Below, piece by piece: positions 36,588 to 62,214 of a stretch of DNA of 64,000 nucleotides. Under the pieces are notes generated by a model. That model did no database searches. It had not been told where the DNA came from and saw nothing but the letters and a program-made list of their open reading frames with translations. The first letter of the stretch is position 1; every line of letters begins with the position of its first letter. Where the stretch lies: NCBI RefSeq assembly GCF_020552705.1, contig NZ_JAJBZG010000004.1:62001-126000 (forward strand), given 5' to 3'. The position numbers were made by a program, and so were the translations under genes. The stretch is from Christiangramia sediminis (GTDB taxonomy: Bacteria > Bacteroidota > Bacteroidia > Flavobacteriales > Flavobacteriaceae).

Positions 36588-37643
36588 ATGAAAATCTTTA
36601 AGTACTTATTATTCTTAACTCTCATTTTTATAATTGGAGCCTCGATATACATCGCCACCAAAGACGGAAAATTTCAGGTGGAGAAAAGACTTATGATGGA
36701 AGCGCCACAGGAAGTTGTTTTTAATGAAGTAAACGATTTTACTACATGGAAAGATTGGGAACCATGGTCTCAGGAAGCTGATGATATGATCATTGAATAC
36801 GGCGAGAAAACAAGCGGAGAAGGTGCTTCCTACTCGTGGCAAAGCGAAGAAATGGGTGAAGGTGAAATGATTACAAAAAAAGCTAATCCGCATAGTAGCC
36901 TGGAACAGGAGATCACCTTTATTACCCCTTTTGGGGAATCTACCAGCGAAGTCTACTGGAAATTTGAACCGCAGGGTGACAGCACCCTTGTAACCTGGGG
37001 AATGATTGGCGAACAAAGTTTTATGGAAAAAGCAGCATTTATTTTTCAGGAGCAAAGCCTTGCTGAAATGATGCAGCCAATGTTTACAAAAGGACTCAAT
37101 AACCTACAGGAAGAGATTCGCCTAAAAATGGATAGCTATTCTATTAATATAGACGGGGTCACTCAGCATGGTGGCGGTTACTATATGTATATTACCTCAG
37201 CGAGCAAGATAAGCCAGGTTAACAATAGAATGGAAAAAATGATCACTGAAGTAGGAAATTTCATGACCTCAAATAATATCGAACAGATTGGCAAACCTTT
37301 TATTCTTTATAATGAATGGAATGAAGAGCAGGGAACTGCGATTTATTCTGCCGCTTATTTCACCCCCAGCGAGGTGGTTACTACAGCAGAAAGCAGCGTA
37401 CTTAATGGGTTTATGCCAAATCAGAGGACTTTAAAGACCACTCTAAAAGGTGATTATGAAAACCTTAAAGAAGCATGGGATTCTTCTTATGCCTATCTTC
37501 AGAAAAACGGCTTAAAGGCTGATGAAAATGCAAAAGCCTTTGAAGTTTATTTAACCGGGCCAAATGATAATGCTAATCCAGCGGAATGGATCACCCAAAT
37601 TTATATACCTCTGGAGCAGGTAAAAGCAGAAAACAATGATTAA
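36588..37643 (+). CDS. SRPBCC / GyrI-like two-domain protein, membrane-anchored
   Basis: 351 residues. An N-terminal membrane span (about 5-23) is followed by a START/SRPBCC lipid-binding-like domain (EKRLMMEAPQEVVFNEVNDFTTWKDWEPW) and a C-terminal domain like the effector-binding GyrI/AraC type (about 185-350). The combination occurs in Bacteroidota without assigned role; a ligand pocket is likely in each domain. It overlaps crcB by 8 nt, so the two are co-translated. Confidence 0.75.
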   Translation: MKIFKYLLFLTLIFIIGASIYIATKDGKFQVEKRLMMEAPQEVVFNEVNDFTTWKDWEPWSQEADDMIIEYGEKTSGEGASYSWQSEEMGEGEMITKKANPHSSLEQEITFITPFGESTSEVYWKFEPQGDSTLVTWGMIGEQSFMEKAAFIFQEQSLAEMMQPMFTKGLNNLQEEIRLKMDSYSINIDGVTQHGGGYYMYITSASKISQVNNRMEKMITEVGNFMTSNNIEQIGKPFILYNEWNEEQGTAIYSAAYFTPSEVVTTAESSVLNGFMPNQRTLKTTLKGDYENLKEAWDSSYAYLQKNGLKADENAKAFEVYLTGPNDNANPAEWITQIYIPLEQVKAENND

Positions 37644-38007
37644 AAATCTTCTTCTTGTATTTATTGGAGGTGGATTGGGCAGTAGTTTAAGATATTTAAT
37701 AAGTAAACATTTAAATGCTACTTCAATGATTCCCTATGGAACATTTCTGGTAAATATTCTTGGAAGTTTCTTGTTGGGTATCATTCTGGGCTGGGCCATG
37801 AAATCTAACTTGCTTAACAGTCCCGTCAATCTTTTGCTGGGAATAGGTTTTTGTGGAGGTTTTACAACCTTTTCTACCTTTTCTTTTGAAAATTACTCCC
37901 TTATTAAATCTGGAGACTATCTGAGCTTCTCCATATACTTTTTCGGAAGTATTATTCTGGGAATTCTGGCTGTCCTTGTCGGAATTTTAATCTCAAAGTT
38001 CTTCTAG
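37636..38007 (+). CDS. crcB: Fluoride channel CrcB/FluC
   Basis: 123 residues, four membrane spans. Family motifs: GGGLGSSLRYLIS (first span), GTFLVNILGSFLLGI with the conserved Asn, and GFCGGFTTFSTFSFE with the Phe box and Thr/Ser that line the pore. It exports fluoride as a dual-topology dimer. No fluoride riboswitch (GGNGAUGG-type) is visible; translation seems to depend on the overlapping upstream gene. Confidence 0.95.
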   Translation: MIKNLLLVFIGGGLGSSLRYLISKHLNATSMIPYGTFLVNILGSFLLGIILGWAMKSNLLNSPVNLLLGIGFCGGFTTFSTFSFENYSLIKSGDYLSFSIYFFGSIILGILAVLVGILISKFF

Positions 38008-38052: not shown

Positions 38053-38086
38053 AAACACCCCTAAAATAATAGGGGTGTTTTATTTT
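38053..38086 (+). terminator. crcB terminator
   Basis: Perfect 11-bp stem AAACACCCCTA / TAGGGGTGTTT, 6-nt loop, followed by T-rich TATTTTTA. Separates crcB from the nitrogen block. Confidence 0.92.
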
Positions 38087-38109: not shown

Positions 38110-38128
38110 ACCCTATTTTTTTAAGGGT
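38110..38128 (+). promoter_or_regulatory. Candidate nitrogen-regulator operator (P-II/amtB)
   Basis: ACCCT-N9-AGGGT, a 19-bp palindrome centred 144 bp upstream of the P-II start codon. The same 19-bp architecture occurs twice upstream of glnN (59471 and 59524). Shared only by the nitrogen genes among the intergenic regions I examined. Confidence 0.6.
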
Positions 38129-38262
38129 ACACCCATCTATTTTTATAAATTTAACCAATTATTAATATTTAATATGAAATGAGCTGTCATTAATTTTAAG
38201 ACCAAATAAAATTATTAGTGCTCATTTCCTCTGACAGATTAATACCAAATAAATACAAACAG

Positions 38263-38601
38263 ATGAAAAAAATTGAAGCAATCATTCGAAAATCAGAGTT
38301 TGATGAAACTAAGAAAGCACTTCATACTATTGGGGTGACCTTCTTTAGTTACTGGGACGTGACCGGAGTTGGTAACGAAAAGGAAGGTCATGTTTACAGG
38401 GGTGTTAGCTATAGCACCGCAGATATTCAAAGAAGATATCTGTCTATAGTAGTAACCGATTCGTTCATGGAGAAAACTGTGGACACTCTTTTAAAGACTG
38501 CTTACACAGGCAAAGTGGGTGACGGGAAGATCTTCGTCTCTACGATAGACGAAGCCTACCGAATTAGGACCAAAGAAAAAGGCAGCGAATCCCTTAAATA
38601 A
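38263..38601 (+). CDS. glnK: P-II family nitrogen regulatory protein
   Basis: 112 residues from the ATG giving MKKIEAIIRKS; 15 upstream residues do not fit the family. P-II signals nitrogen and energy status, here probably by plugging AmtB. The T-loop YRGVSY keeps the Tyr equivalent to the modified Tyr51, but it is one residue shorter upstream, and Gln39, which coordinates Mg-2-oxoglutarate in canonical P-II, appears as Glu. The C-terminal KVGDGKIFVSTIDEA is well conserved. It is 31 nt ahead of amtB, the standard pairing. Confidence 0.92.
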   Translation: MKKIEAIIRKSEFDETKKALHTIGVTFFSYWDVTGVGNEKEGHVYRGVSYSTADIQRRYLSIVVTDSFMEKTVDTLLKTAYTGKVGDGKIFVSTIDEAYRIRTKEKGSESLK

Positions 38602-38632: not shown

Positions 38633-39859
38633 ATGGAAGGACTATTAACTATAAATAATGTATGGATGATGATCTGTACCGGCCTGGTGTTTTTCATGCA
38701 CCTTGGTTTCGCATTATTAGAAATAGGATTAACAAGACAAAAGAACACTATCAATATACTATTCAAGAATATCTTTATTATTACGATGGGACTTCTGCTC
38801 TACTGCCTGCTAGGCTTCAATTTGATGTATCCCGGTGAGTTTAACGGGTTTATAGGCTTTGCGGGATTTGGATTAAGTAGTCCCCTGGTAGACGGCAGCC
38901 TGGACCTCGCCTATAGCGAAGGTTACACGTACTGGACAGACTTTCTATTCCAGGGAATGTTTGCCGCGACCGCAGCAACTATTGTATCGGGGGCTGTTGC
39001 AGAAAGAATAAAACTGCACAGTTTTATGATTTTTGTGATCTTATATATTGGCCTCGTGTATCCCATTGCCGGTTCCTGGAAATGGGGTGGCGGATTCCTG
39101 GATGAAATGGGATTCTATGATTTTGCAGGATCAACCCTGGTACATTCAGTAGGTGGATGGGCGGCCCTGGTTGCGATATGGCTGCTGGGAGCAAGAATTG
39201 GAAAATTCAAGGATGGAAAAATAGGAGCTTTCCCCGGACACAGCATGCCTTTTGCAACTGCAGGTGTGATCATACTATGGTTAGGATGGTTTGGATTTAA
39301 CGGAGGCTCGGTACTTTCTGCAGATCCTGAATTAACATCACTTACACTGGTAACAACCTGTCTTGCTGCCGCAGCGGGTGGAGTAGCTTCATTTATCTTC
39401 TCCTCCGTCCTCTACAAAAATTATGATATTACCATGTTCTTAAATGGAATTCTGGGCGGACTGGTAGGCATAACTGCCGGGGCTGACCAGATGTCTCCAA
39501 CAGACGCCATCTTAATTGGTGCCATTGCCGGTGTGATCATCGTACTTGGAGTTGCCTTAATAGACAAATTAAAACTGGATGATCCGGTTGGAGCTGTGGC
39601 CGTTCACCTCATCTGCGGGATCTGGGGCACCCTGGCCGTAGGGATCTTCGGAAAACTTGCCGGTTTTGATCAGTTTATCAATCAGCTCATAGGAGTAGCA
39701 TGTTATGCCGCTATTTGCATTATTGGTTCGTTCATCATTTTCTACCTGCTTAAAGTTACCATAGGCATTCGAGTATCTGCCAAAGAAGAAACCGAAGGCC
39801 TCGATATTCACGAACATGGAATGGATGCTTACCCCGATTTCGGAATAAAGCAACATTAA
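38633..39859 (+). CDS. amtB: Ammonium transporter AmtB
   Basis: 408 residues, about eleven membrane spans. Hallmarks include AERIKLHSFMIF, DFAGSTLVHSVGGWAALV with the first pore His, and DDPVGAVAVHLICGIWG with the second pore His; FQGMFAATAATIVSGAVAER forms part of the Phe-gated vestibule. It moves ammonium across the inner membrane. Forms a unit with the P-II gene and probably the porin gene downstream. Confidence 0.97.
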   Translation: MEGLLTINNVWMMICTGLVFFMHLGFALLEIGLTRQKNTINILFKNIFIITMGLLLYCLLGFNLMYPGEFNGFIGFAGFGLSSPLVDGSLDLAYSEGYTYWTDFLFQGMFAATAATIVSGAVAERIKLHSFMIFVILYIGLVYPIAGSWKWGGGFLDEMGFYDFAGSTLVHSVGGWAALVAIWLLGARIGKFKDGKIGAFPGHSMPFATAGVIILWLGWFGFNGGSVLSADPELTSLTLVTTCLAAAAGGVASFIFSSVLYKNYDITMFLNGILGGLVGITAGADQMSPTDAILIGAIAGVIIVLGVALIDKLKLDDPVGAVAVHLICGIWGTLAVGIFGKLAGFDQFINQLIGVACYAAICIIGSFIIFYLLKVTIGIRVSAKEETEGLDIHEHGMDAYPDFGIKQH

Positions 39860-39999: not shown

Positions 40000-41088
40000 A
40001 TGAAAACAATTACGTCTTCAAAATTAGTAAAATTTCTCTTTTTACTGCCGGTAGCCTTAACAACTTCTACAATGATCGCCCAGGAAGAAGAGGAAGCAGC
40101 AAAATTCACCATTAATGGTAGTATAGATGCCTATTTTAGAACTAATTTCAACGGATTAAATAAATCCCAGGAAATTGTAGGAGGAGATGAAGCCTCATTT
40201 ATACCAGCCGCTCCTGCTACTTCATTTGCCAATGATCCAGGCTTCGCCATTGGCATGGCCAATATTATTCTTGGATATGAAAACGATAAAATAGGCTTTG
40301 TAGCCGATCTTGTATTTGGCCCACGTGGGGAAGATGCAGTATTTCTTTCAGAACCTTCTACAAATATTGTCAATCAACTCTACGCTTATTATAAGATAAA
40401 TGATGCCTTGAAATTTACTTTAGGAAACTGGAATACTTTTTTAGGATATGAAGTGATCTCCCCGGCGGCAAATTTCAATTACTCCACTTCATATATGTTT
40501 TCCTACGGACCGTTCTCCCATACAGGAATAAAAGCTGATTTTAGTTTTGATGATAACTGGACCGGGATGCTTGCAGTTATGAATCCAACAGATTATACTG
40601 AATTTAACCCCATTGGAAAATACACTTTTGGAGGTCTGCTTGGATATTCTAATGCTTCCGGTAGCGCCTTTCTTAATTTGATATATGGAGAACAGTCACT
40701 TTCTGACGATGCCCTTTTTCAAATTGATCTGACTACAGGCTGGGATCTCACGGAAACATTTTATTTAGGTTTTAATACAACCTACCAGGATACCGAAGGT
40801 GTTGGCTTTTATGGCGCAGCTCTTTATCCCCAGATAGCTTTATCAGATAGTTTTGGGCTCGGCCTAAGAGCGGAATACTTCAAAGAATTGGAAGATGGCG
40901 GACCGGTATATGGAGCCGATGTAAGATCTCTAGATTTCACACTTACCGGTAGCTATGCAGTTGGTGGTTTGATCATAAAGCCGGAACTTCGTCTTGATAG
41001 TATTTCTGAAGATGTTTTCCTGGATCAGGATCTTCAGGCTACAGATAATTTATCATCCTTTGTGCTGGCTGCTATTTACGCATTTTGA
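40000..41088 (+). CDS. Outer-membrane porin (BBP2/OmpL-like)
   Basis: 362 residues with signal peptide (KFLFLLPVALTTSTMIAQ). The mature part is a beta-barrel of alternating strands, ending in FVLAAIYAF with C-terminal Phe, the outer-membrane sorting signal. GSIDAYFRTNFNG, LGNWNTFLGYEVISP and YSTSYMFSYGPFSHTGIKA resemble the putative beta-barrel porin-2 family. Its place after P-II and amtB suggests it admits ammonium or other small nitrogen solutes (inference). Confidence 0.82.
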   Translation: MKTITSSKLVKFLFLLPVALTTSTMIAQEEEEAAKFTINGSIDAYFRTNFNGLNKSQEIVGGDEASFIPAAPATSFANDPGFAIGMANIILGYENDKIGFVADLVFGPRGEDAVFLSEPSTNIVNQLYAYYKINDALKFTLGNWNTFLGYEVISPAANFNYSTSYMFSYGPFSHTGIKADFSFDDNWTGMLAVMNPTDYTEFNPIGKYTFGGLLGYSNASGSAFLNLIYGEQSLSDDALFQIDLTTGWDLTETFYLGFNTTYQDTEGVGFYGAALYPQIALSDSFGLGLRAEYFKELEDGGPVYGADVRSLDFTLTGSYAVGGLIIKPELRLDSISEDVFLDQDLQATDNLSSFVLAAIYAF

Positions 41089-44933: not shown

Positions 44934-45386
44934 TTAGAATTCTCCCATACGTTGTTTAATGGGAGCATCTTCAATAACATTGGAAAGTATAATATGGGTT
45001 CTGGTCTCTCCGTAGGTAATTAATCTGTCTATAAGCTTCTCCAAATGCACCTGATCATGTAGAACGACTTCCATAATTATATTTTCATTCCCGGTTATTC
45101 GATAACAGTTAATCACTTCCTTAAAGCTTTTTACCGTTTCCAGAAAAGCTTTTAATCTTCCGGTAAATGCCCTTAATGTTATTACCGCTCGTAATTGATA
45201 ACCGGTTTTTTGATGCGACAGGTTTACCTTATAAGAACTTATTACCCCCGAGTCTTCCATTTTCTTAACCCGCTCTGCTACCGCAGGGGAAGTTAAACCC
45301 ACTTTTCTTCCTATTTCAGAAAAAGAGGCCCTGGCGTTTTTCTGTAATTCTTCAAGGATGGCCCAGTTTAATTTATCCAGATTCAT
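44934..45386 (-). CDS. Lrp/AsnC-family transcriptional regulator
   Basis: 150 residues: winged helix-turn-helix in 1-55 (LDKLNWAILEELQKNARASF, then IGRKVGLTSPAVAERVKKME) and the RAM ligand-binding domain in 70-150. Lrp-like proteins sense amino acids and often regulate the divergent gene and themselves. A 16-bp perfect palindrome lies in the divergent region, 46 bp before the start. Ligand unknown. Confidence 0.93.
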   Translation of the reverse strand: MNLDKLNWAILEELQKNARASFSEIGRKVGLTSPAVAERVKKMEDSGVISSYKVNLSHQKTGYQLRAVITLRAFTGRLKAFLETVKSFKEVINCYRITGNENIIMEVVLHDQVHLEKLIDRLITYGETRTHIILSNVIEDAPIKQRMGEF

Positions 45387-57146: not shown

Positions 57147-59333
57147 TTATCTAGTAAACAATAACTCTCTGTATTTTGTTAGTGGCCAAAGTTCATCGTC
57201 CACTAACAACTCCAGTTTATCACAATGATATCTTATTTCTTCAAAATAAGGTTTAATGTCATCACAATAAGCAAAAGCTTTTTTCTCTACATCTTCTATC
57301 TTATTAGCAACTTTTCTGGCTTCTATCATCGCATTCACATTAGAGTTAATGCTGGCAATATGTGCAGAAATACTTTCTATGATCTCTAATTGTTCTTTAG
57401 CATGTCTGGTATACTCATCTCCATAGATCGCTTTCAATCCGGTGACGTTCTTGATAAGAATATTCTGGTAACGAATTGCTGTTGGAATCACATGATTCCT
57501 GGCGATATCTCCAAGAATACGTCCTTCTATCTGGATTCTCATGGCATATTCCTCAAGTTCGATCTCATGACGAGCTTCGACCTCGGTTTTATTCATTACC
57601 TCCAGCTCTTTATATAAAGAAATCGTCTTCTTACTAACTTGAGCTTTTAATGCTTGCGGAGTGGTTCTGTTATTACTTAAGCCACGTTTTTTAGCTTCTT
57701 TTTCCCAGGCTTCTCCATAACCGTCACCTTCAAATCTAATCTTTTTGGATTTTTTGATGTATTCTCTAAGAACATTAAAGATAGCATCATCCTTCTTCAT
57801 CTTCTTATCCTTGATAAGCTTATCTACCTCAACCTTAAAGTCCTTAAGTTGCTTGGCCACGATACTATTAAGTACCGTCATTGCATTTGCACAGTTAGCA
57901 AGCGAACCTACGGCACGGAATTCAAATTTATTCCCGGTAAAGGCAAAAGAAGAAGTACGGTTTCTATCGGTATTATCACGAAGAATTTCCGGTATCTTAC
58001 CTACTACGTTTAACTTAAGATCTGTTTTCTCCTGCGGAGAAAGCTTTCCGTCAGTAACTTTTTCGAGTTCATCCAAGACCTTGGTTAATTGTGAACCAAT
58101 AAATACCGAAATAATTGCAGGCGGAGCTTCATTTGCACCTAAACGATGGTCGTTAGAAGCACTGGCGATACATGCTCTCAATAATTCCTCATTATCATAA
58201 ACTGCCTTGATGGTGTTGATAAAAAAGGTTAAAAACTGAAGGTTCTTCATTGGAGTTGAACCTGGAGAAAGCAGATTTGTACCCGTATCTGTTGCCAGAG
58301 ACCAGTTATTATGTTTACCACTACCGTTAATTCCGGCAAATGGTTTCTCATGCATTAATACAGAAAGATTATGTCTCTCCCCAACTTTCTTCATAACATC
58401 CATAATAAGGGAGTTATGATCTACCGCAAGGTTTGCCTCTTCAAAGATCGGAGCCAGCTCAAACTGATTAGGGGCCACCTCGTTGTGACGTGTCTTAACT
58501 GGAATACCCAGTTTCATACATTCAATCTCAAGATCCATCATAAATGAAATTGCTCTTGATGGGATTGAACCAAAATAGTGATCATCTAACTGCTGACCCT
58601 TTGCCGGGGAATGCCCAAGCAGCGTTCTTCCGGTAAGAGTAATATCTGGTCTAGATGCAACCAGTGCCGAATCTATAAGAAAATATTCCTGCTCCCAACC
58701 TAAAGTAGCATTGACTTTCTTTACATTTTTATCAAAATATTTTACAACATTAGTAGCTGCATTATCAACTGCCTGAAGTGCTCTTAATAATGGAGTCTTA
58801 TTATCCAGCGCTTCTCCTGTATAGGAAACAAAGATTGTTGGAATACAAAGCGTAGTTCCCCATATAAATGCTGGCGAAGTTGGATCCCATGCAGTATAAC
58901 CACGCGCTTCAAAAGTATTTCTAATTCCGCCACTAGGAAAACTGGAAGCATCAGGCTCCTGCTGTACCAGCTGGCTACCCCCAAATTTTTCAATCGCAAG
59001 GCCTTCTGATAAAGGTTCAAAGAAAGAATCATGCTTTTCTGCGGTAGTTCCGGTTAGTGGTTGAAACCAGTGAGTATAATGAGTCACTCCTTTAGAAATT
59101 GCCCATTCTTTCATCCCTGTAGAGATATGATCGGCTACGTTACGGTCAATTTTCTTTCCCGTACGCATAGCTTCAGTCACATTTTCAAAAGCTTCTTTCG
59201 TTAGAAACTGTCTCATAACAGTTTCATTAAATACATTACTGGAGAATATCTCTGATCTTCTTGCAGGCTCAGTAATTTTAAGAGGCTTACGGTTTAAAGT
59301 TTCTTTTAAAGCTTGAAATCTTAAAGTTGACAT
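57147..59333 (-). CDS. glnN: Glutamine synthetase type III (GlnN)
   Basis: 728 residues, the size of GSIII (about 700-730), not of GSI (470) or GSII (350). N-terminal GSIII-specific part with VFNETVMRQFLTKEAFENV, then catalytic motifs HEKPFAGINGSGKHNNWSL (ATP/ammonium region), NEVAPNQFELAP and the late FEFRAVGSLAN. It condenses ammonium and glutamate, taking in ammonium imported by AmtB. The 389-nt region upstream holds two ACCCY-N9-AGGGT palindromes shared with the P-II gene and a -7-like TATATTCG (minus, 59403-59410). Confidence 0.97.
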   Translation of the reverse strand: MSTLRFQALKETLNRKPLKITEPARRSEIFSSNVFNETVMRQFLTKEAFENVTEAMRTGKKIDRNVADHISTGMKEWAISKGVTHYTHWFQPLTGTTAEKHDSFFEPLSEGLAIEKFGGSQLVQQEPDASSFPSGGIRNTFEARGYTAWDPTSPAFIWGTTLCIPTIFVSYTGEALDNKTPLLRALQAVDNAATNVVKYFDKNVKKVNATLGWEQEYFLIDSALVASRPDITLTGRTLLGHSPAKGQQLDDHYFGSIPSRAISFMMDLEIECMKLGIPVKTRHNEVAPNQFELAPIFEEANLAVDHNSLIMDVMKKVGERHNLSVLMHEKPFAGINGSGKHNNWSLATDTGTNLLSPGSTPMKNLQFLTFFINTIKAVYDNEELLRACIASASNDHRLGANEAPPAIISVFIGSQLTKVLDELEKVTDGKLSPQEKTDLKLNVVGKIPEILRDNTDRNRTSSFAFTGNKFEFRAVGSLANCANAMTVLNSIVAKQLKDFKVEVDKLIKDKKMKKDDAIFNVLREYIKKSKKIRFEGDGYGEAWEKEAKKRGLSNNRTTPQALKAQVSKKTISLYKELEVMNKTEVEARHEIELEEYAMRIQIEGRILGDIARNHVIPTAIRYQNILIKNVTGLKAIYGDEYTRHAKEQLEIIESISAHIASINSNVNAMIEARKVANKIEDVEKKAFAYCDDIKPYFEEIRYHCDKLELLVDDELWPLTKYRELLFTR

Positions 59334-59470
59334 ATAAAATATTTAAGTTGCGTTTCTAATTGTAAAAACCGGTTAATCATAAGATTAGATCGATTGAAGT
59401 TGCGAATATAGGATTTATGCATCAAAAAAATAAAGATTTAATCCTTAAAAAATGATAAAATTTAATTTTT

Positions 59471-59489
59471 ACCCCAAAAAAAGAAGGGT
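59471..59489 (-). promoter_or_regulatory. Candidate nitrogen operator 1 of glnN
   Basis: ACCCC-N9-AGGGT, centred 147 bp upstream of the glnN start, almost the same distance as in front of the P-II gene (144). A-tract in the spacer. Confidence 0.55.
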
Positions 59490-59523: not shown

Positions 59524-59542
59524 ACCCTACAATTAATAGGGT
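59524..59542 (-). promoter_or_regulatory. Candidate nitrogen operator 2 of glnN
   Basis: ACCCT-N9-AGGGT, 53 bp upstream of operator 1, about five helical turns, so bound dimers would face the same side. Arms extend to ACCCTA / TAGGGT. The remaining part of the 59334-59722 gene-free interval is AT-rich with nothing else recognised. Confidence 0.6.
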
Positions 59543-61851: not shown

Positions 61852-62214
61852 ATGGAGAAATTAACTAATAAAGAGGAAGAGATCATGAGAGTTCTCTGGG
61901 ATCTTGAAAAAGCATTTGTTAAAGAGGTTCTGCCAGAATTAAAAGATCAGAAACTTCATTACAATACGGTATCTACCATTATAAGAAACCTGGAAGAAAA
62001 AGGCTATGTTTCTCATAAAGCTTATGGAAAAACACATCAATATTTTCCGGTGATTTCCAAGGAGAAATACCGAAAGCAGTTTATGAATATGGCCACTAAG
62101 CGCTTTTTTGACAACTCTTTTAAAAATGTGGTTTCCTATTTTGCAAAAGAAGAAAAGATTAGCGCAGAAGAATTACGGGAGATCCTGGATATTATTGAAA
62201 ATAAAAAGAAATAA
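61852..62214 (+). CDS. blaI: BlaI/MecI/CopY-family repressor
   Basis: 120 residues, winged helix-turn-helix of the penicillinase-repressor family: LTNKEEEIMRVLWDLEKAFVKEVLPEL and HYNTVSTIIRNLEEKGYVSHKAYGKTHQYFP. The C-terminal dimerisation helix (VVSYFAKEEKISAEELREIL) holds the usual cleavage region by the BlaR1 partner. Its TAA overlaps the ATG of the M56 peptidase gene by 1 nt (TAATG), the standard sensor-repressor pairing. Confidence 0.92.
   Translation: MEKLTNKEEEIMRVLWDLEKAFVKEVLPELKDQKLHYNTVSTIIRNLEEKGYVSHKAYGKTHQYFPVISKEKYRKQFMNMATKRFFDNSFKNVVSYFAKEEKISAEELREILDIIENKKK

Follow-up and report, generated by a model that had tools for sequence, protein, structure and literature searches.

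The P-II/amtB operon and the glnN gene of Christiangramia sediminis, which encode a P-II signalling protein with an ammonium transporter and a type III glutamine synthetase (GSIII), respectively, share a short palindrome upstream of their start codons. This raises the question of whether the palindrome is the operator of one regulator of ammonium metabolism. A first-pass annotation of the 64,000-nucleotide stretch of DNA analysed here (the window) had described it as a 19-bp site, ACCCY-N9-AGGGT, present once before P-II/amtB and twice before glnN. A pattern scan of the window returned these three sites, all as exact matches (Table 1), and none of 100 shuffled windows (mean, 0.16 matches) reached that count. 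The double occurrence at glnN thus stood, whereas the single occurrence at P-II/amtB did not, because a second, distal dyad was found there as a one-mismatch match.

Table 1. Operator dyads, predicted promoter elements and target genes at the two loci, numbered from the first base of the window
Feature	Position	Strand	Basis or remark
Distal dyad ACCCCT-N8-AGGGGT, P-II/amtB promoter	38057..38076	+	Scan, one mismatch
Proximal dyad, P-II/amtB promoter	38110..38128	+	Exact match; distal dyad 52.5 bp upstream
Predicted sigma-A -7 box TAAATTTA, one base off TANNTTTG	38146..38153	+	18 bp after proximal GGG
P-II signalling protein gene, target	38263..38601	+	Pfam PF00543 (P-II, E 7e-22)
amtB ammonium transporter, target operon	38633..39859	+	Pfam PF00909 (E 9e-116)
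OmpL-like outer-membrane porin (BBP2) after amtB	40000..41088	+	Pfam PF07642
glnN, type III glutamine synthetase (GSIII), target	57147..59333	-	Pfam PF12437/PF00120 (GSIII_N E 8e-79)
Predicted -7 box TATATTCG, glnN promoter	59403..59410	-	61 bp after proximal GGG
Proximal dyad, glnN promoter	59471..59489	-	Exact match; 53 bp from distal dyad
Distal dyad, glnN promoter	59524..59542	-	Exact match

Taken singly, the 19-bp motif is not specific. The 3.25-Mb genome contains nine matches, compared with five for the reversed pattern; among the six outside the window, three are GC-rich hairpins directly after the end of a gene, two fall within long open frames and the last is an intergenic AT-rich hairpin. 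No regulator gene was recognised by eye among the open frames beside these six sites; a frame resembling a winged-helix protein is present at a distance of 1.8 kb from one site (L014). The genome scan for single sites that had been suggested as a check therefore gives a nearly random outcome. A random distribution, which had been named as grounds for abandoning the proposal, is approximated by the single site but not by the pair of sites described below, to which alone specificity belongs and which is located at ammonium genes.

The relevant unit is a pair of CCC-N11-GGG dyads separated by 52–54 bp. Promoters were gathered by protein homology alone, independently of the motif, using AmtB and GSIII in one set of 30 related genomes, GSIII at 80 loci from named genomes, and P-II in 30 genomes without a strict pair. 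This yielded 136 distinct upstream regions (103 of glnN, 18 of P-II, and 15 of P-II from the genomes without a strict pair). CCC-N11-GGG was present in 89 of them and the inverted form, GGG-N11-CCC, in one, while mononucleotide shuffles gave 0.25. The core of the dyad is not razor-sharp, since CCC-N10-GGG (65/136) and CCC-N12-GGG (71/136) were also common, partly as a result of C or G runs longer than three. Among these promoters, all 16 glnN dyad pairs and all 13 P-II dyad pairs showed the 52–54-bp spacing, and no other dyad spacing was observed within 300 bp in the glnN and P-II promoters. Four of the 15 P-II regions from genomes without a strict pair contained a full dyad, and the one pair among them was spaced by 156 bp; several P-II genes of such genomes, judged by eye, sit behind another gene. 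Where a promoter had fewer than two full dyads, the distances between GGG runs peaked at 52–53 bp (38 cases), and no distance outside 51–54 bp in the 20–120-bp range had more than three cases. The logo of 65 pairs reads ACCC-N11-GGG with an A/T-rich centre, and the linker between the dyads carries an A-tract (73–80% A at four columns), perhaps for alpha-subunit contact or as a bend.

The genes behind the pair are nearly all concerned with ammonium. Among 30 pair loci returned by the search tool, 28 were at P-II-amtB, porin-amtB, amtB, glnN or ald, the exceptions being L156 and L157; ald was identified by Pfam as alanine dehydrogenase in L155, L164 and L165. A further 40 loci were hand-picked among the family matches listed, with five GC-rich matches dropped by eye (G149:C7, G106:C3, G195:C31, G127:C10 and G109:C1:861530) and with G199, G150, G113, G040 and G146 also left out; all 40 were at ammonium genes (39, plus one gltB). 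Since this second sample is not unbiased, target specificity rests on the tool-chosen 28/30. In the gltB locus the gene starts 225 bp behind the pair, which makes gltB an additional target, and in 13 of the 40 selected loci gltB starts across the porin or P-II pair and reads away from it. When 14 genomes of the genus were searched with up to two mismatches, 59 places matched, compared with 22 for the reversed pattern, and the 14 zero-mismatch pairs, from ten genomes, were all located at glnN or an amtB operon. The genome of C. sediminis has two exact pairs, both in the window, and one two-mismatch match elsewhere, so that by this criterion its regulon consists of two operons. A second, diverged amtB with its own 53-bp pair was noted in another member of the genus (G002:C1:2800894, L118), where the protein match begins 429 and 376 bp after the two dyads.

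Within the genus, 14 of 18 genomes conserve the strict pair at glnN and 13 of 17 conserve it at P-II, and seven of the remaining eight promoters retain one full dyad. Loss of the motif in close relatives, which had been put forward as a way in which the proposal could fail, is therefore not what was found. In the family (f1, inferred to be Flavobacteriaceae), sampled at one genome per genus, 89 of 199 genomes carried the pair, compared with eight for the reversed pattern; the strict pair was absent from 110, several of which, on inspection, had near-pairs or half-sites. A phylum-wide sample gave a match in 38 of 296 genomes, eight of them of family f1. Outside that family, 30 genomes with the pair stood against 23 with the reversed pattern (counted from the table of matches), which is near chance level. 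Examples of a pair, of a near-pair or of isolated dyads occurred in related families of the order (G026, G019 and the Chryseobacterium glnN loci L067 and L068), whereas none of four Flavobacterium glnN loci (L042–L045) had a dyad. The glnN promoters of 26 genomes from other orders, viewed by eye, mostly showed nothing, with hints only in L263, L273 and L279. The closest glnN among the named loci was that of Aequorivita (80%). At a threshold of E 1e-15, 16 of 30 genomes lacking a strict pair had no P-II of the type found in the window, and this type was likewise missing from four of the five genomes in genus g140 (probably Flavobacterium) and from all three in family f5 (probably the Chryseobacterium family). 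At one locus of another family of the order (L113), CCCCCCTATTTTTTA is directly repeated upstream of amtB, with two copies spaced by about 52 bp and a third located about 72 bp beyond them, as counted by eye; these repeats may represent a half-site version of the paired operator.

The pair also has a regular position relative to the core promoter. For this comparison, 96 pair promoters were used, the selection being restricted to those with a known target gene in the next 350 bp downstream; among the matches listed, the first gene after the pair was the porin in 26 of the 96. In 38 of these promoters the strict sigma-A -7 box, TANNTTTG, begins 16–18 bp downstream of the proximal GGG, and six such boxes occur elsewhere in the first 60 bp; the reversed sequence contained seven boxes, none in the 16–18-bp slot. 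At least 52 of the 96 lack a strict TANNTTTG in the first 60 bp, a number that we count against the reading of the pair as operators. At P-II, porin and ald promoters having a box, the 16–18-bp offset was found in 43 of 46. With TA of the Flavobacterium psychrophilum consensus TAnnTTTG placed at -12 (the consensus spans -12 to -5; PMC9723704), the proximal dyad is centred at about -38 and the distal dyad at about -91. Transcription would then be predicted to start near 38158 at P-II and near 59398 at glnN.

At glnN, the distance between dyad and box tends to change in steps of about 11 bp, with exceptions. In 63 glnN promoters having both a dyad and a box (the first box where there were several), the offset was 16–17 bp in four, 26–30 bp in 17, 38–39 bp in two, 50–53 bp in seven and 60–61 bp in 14. 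The last step is almost confined to the focal genus, which supplied 13 of its 14 cases; it was found in 13 of the 14 pair promoters of the genus, and the fourteenth (L136) has no box. Nine of the 63 offsets were shorter than 10 bp, and values of 43, 46, 48, 58, 64, 70, 86 and 99 bp fell off the ladder. Outside the genus (n = 37, offsets shorter than 10 bp excluded), the periodicity gave R = 0.58 at a period of 11 bp and 0.68 at 11.5 bp, Rayleigh values that treat related species as independent. The -33 position reads WWGG in the 65 pairs, not TTTG. A sigma-54 promoter of the form TGGYM-N6-TTGS was found in none of the 96 pair promoters, and GG-N10-GC occurred in three, at no common place.

The distance to the start codon behaves differently. 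The first-pass annotation had given weight to the similar offsets of 144 and 147 bp between motif and start at the two loci, and this agreement is a coincidence, because the P-II leader of C. sediminis is about 90 bases longer than usual in the genus. Among the matches listed, ten of the 13 genomes of the genus that have a strict pair at P-II place the proximal GGG 47–49 bp before the P-II start. The extra sequence (window positions 38175–38262, between promoter and start) begins with ATGAAATGAGC, is also present in G017 (L096) and G004 (L106), and is absent from the other ten. It differs among the three genomes after GAGC, and in C. sediminis the leader folds as a strong hairpin, GAAAUGAGC/GCUCAUUUC (z = -3.4); it may be a small leader RNA, a leader peptide or a mini-insertion. 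The conserved quantity is the distance from the dyad to the -7 box, not to the start codon. On the other side of the promoter, a terminator-like hairpin on both strands (window positions 38053–38080) coincides with the distal P-II dyad, behind a gene at 37636–38007 that, recognised by eye, is presumably crcB, encoding a fluoride channel.

Conservation, target specificity and promoter geometry together strongly support the earlier view that one shared site serves the main ammonium genes. We interpret the dyads as paired operators for one putative sequence-specific DNA-binding protein, probably an activator, that would control ammonium uptake and assimilation in Flavobacteriaceae, and we assign this reading a probability of roughly three in four. 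Each operator would be a 17–20-bp dyad, CCC-N11-GGG, with an A/T-rich centre, and the two would lie 53 bp, or five helix turns, apart with the A-tract between them, so that two dimers could bind on one side of the helix. The proximal dimer would adjoin RNA polymerase at about -38 or, in the case of glnN, lie farther upstream by one to four turns, and the dimers would bring the sigma-A enzyme to promoters with a -7 box but no recognisable -33 element. Activation is favoured because the distance to the -7 box is fixed or stepped and a recognisable -33 element is lacking, and the regulator would most likely act under nitrogen limitation.

The pair could instead be the operator of a repressor, whose dimers, 53 bp apart, would co-operate or form a loop, blocking the -33 region in ammonium excess and releasing it in nitrogen limitation. 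The proximal dyad does cover the -33 region at the P-II and porin promoters, a repressor overlapping that region would likewise require the proximal site, and spacing by whole helix turns also fits looping. However, in the majority of glnN promoters the -7 box is found 26 to 61 bp downstream of the proximal dyad, usually at helical intervals, and in the genus of the window the dyad is too distant for polymerase to be blocked directly; a core promoter without a recognisable -33 element is, moreover, what dependence on an activator would lead one to expect. Repression is possible at P-II and strained at glnN, and we regard it as unlikely overall. Changing the spacing by 5 or 10 bp would separate activation from repression.

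Candidates for the protein that reads the pair were sought among clusters of open frames present in at least three loci, recognised by eye in the 40 selected loci and the 80 glnN loci. The only regulators recognised repeatedly near the target genes of these loci were Lrp-type proteins in three (one of which was checked with Pfam) and BlaI-type proteins in nine. Lrp-type proteins elsewhere control gltBD and ald, and the window contains an Lrp/AsnC gene at 44934–45386, 7 kb from the P-II promoter. This gene could encode the reader: an ortholog was found in 37 of 43 motif-bearing genomes (the copy in G177 being only 44% identical, with stops), lying about 5–10 kb from the P-II pair in eight of a set of ten motif-bearing genomes outside the genus that have it. 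At E <1e-30 there was none in 17 comparison genomes (five of g140, three of f5 and nine of other orders), where the best match had an E value of 6.7e-27. Against this, the gene was missing, at E 1e-20, from six of the 43 motif-bearing genomes (G043, G054, G111, G148, G166 and G200), three of them single-contig assemblies of 99–100% completeness and one, G111, 89% complete, which argues that it is not the sole reader. Furthermore, a close ortholog (58–78% identical) was present in 44 of 60 family genomes without a strict pair, hand-chosen from the 110, which indicates that the gene mostly tracks the family, and its own promoter has no dyad at up to one mismatch. We therefore consider it improbable that the Lrp/AsnC protein is the reader. 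The BlaI-type repressor gene of the window (61852–62214) is about 2.5 kb from glnN, and such genes are within the 3-kb flank in nine of the 80 glnN loci. The BlaI-type protein was rejected as the reader: orthologs (64–68% identical) occur in all five g140 genomes, which have no pair, and none was detected at E 1e-20 in the motif-bearing G019 and G166.

It is very unlikely that the dyads act as terminators of transcription or as RNA hairpins rather than as protein sites, although the distal P-II dyad with its flanks folds into a hairpin (z = -3.5) that a terminator scan classed as terminator-like, behind the putative crcB, and the three GC-rich single matches elsewhere directly follow gene ends, because the 53-bp spacing is fixed, the fixed distance to the predicted downstream -7 box would leave the sites outside the transcript made from it, and the glnN dyads, inspected by eye, have no T-run directly downstream; an Rfam search of the window gave no match.

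Returning to paired operators for a probable activator, the protein that binds them may be new, as the first-pass annotation had proposed on the ground that circuits based on NtrC, GlnR or NtcA are not generally described in Bacteroidota. The chances appear about even that it belongs to a family not yet tied to nitrogen control and forms a private switch of two to four operons in many Flavobacteriaceae, with class III-like activation of the sigma-A enzyme by two co-operating dimers five turns apart, possibly gated by P-II. Such gating is suggested by the absence of this P-II type from 16 of 30 genomes without a strict pair. In the literature searched on nitrogen regulation in Bacteroidetes and Flavobacteria, mostly outside subscription journals, we found neither such a site or regulator nor a description of the way in which Bacteroidota adjust ammonium assimilation. 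As far as we know, the novelty lies in the sequence of the operator, the fixed pairing at 53 bp and the lineage. The paired site is a ready bait for the reader protein and a sharp consensus for finding its regulon. Flavobacteriaceae are marine polysaccharide degraders that live on a diet of high C:N ratio, and a nitrogen switch in this family would therefore bear on the turnover of carbon in the ocean.

Nitrogen-control regulons are well known as a kind, and the shared site described here is likewise concentrated at genes for ammonium uptake and assimilation. The NtrC dyad has the consensus TGCACC-N5-GGTGCA, which differs from the ACCC-N11-GGG logo of the 65 pairs. The pair resembles the NtrC enhancers of sigma-54 promoters in that paired dyads lie upstream of nitrogen genes. 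In F. psychrophilum, the genes with sigma-54-type promoters are reported to concern envelope stress, protein quality control and gliding (PMC9723704). Unlike NtrC targets, the pair promoters have no -24/-12 element but a sigma-A -7 box, TANNTTTG, at a fixed place. The cyanobacterial NtcA box is GTA-N8-TAC, centred at -41.5; class II-like activation of glnA, amt and glnB in nitrogen limitation would be common to both systems, whereas the sequence, the distance of the half-sites and the paired layout are not.

In layout, the pair is close to class III CRP-type promoters of E. coli, which have sites near -41.5 and -93.5. In both, about 52 bp separate two sites that share a face of the helix, the proximal site being beside polymerase, with fixed phasing to the -10 or -7 box (at glnN in steps of about 11 bp, with exceptions). 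The pair differs in that its proximal centre is at about -38 rather than -41.5, its half-sites are further from the axis, and these are CCC rather than the TGTGA, TTGAT or GTA of the CRP/FNR type, the dyad not being TGTGA-N6-TCACA. In dyad geometry, it resembles Crp, Fis-type or Lrp sites less closely than the TnrA/GlnR boxes of Firmicutes (MerR family), TGTNA-N7-TNACA. Like these boxes, the site is a 17-bp dyad with three outer bases 6–8 bp from the axis, an 11-bp core and an A/T-rich centre, and the TnrA/GlnR targets amtB-glnK, glnA and gltB are genes of the same kinds as those behind the pair. Unlike TnrA/GlnR boxes, the flavobacterial operators have CCC/GGG as outer bases, are paired at a fixed 53 bp and serve GSIII instead of GSI.
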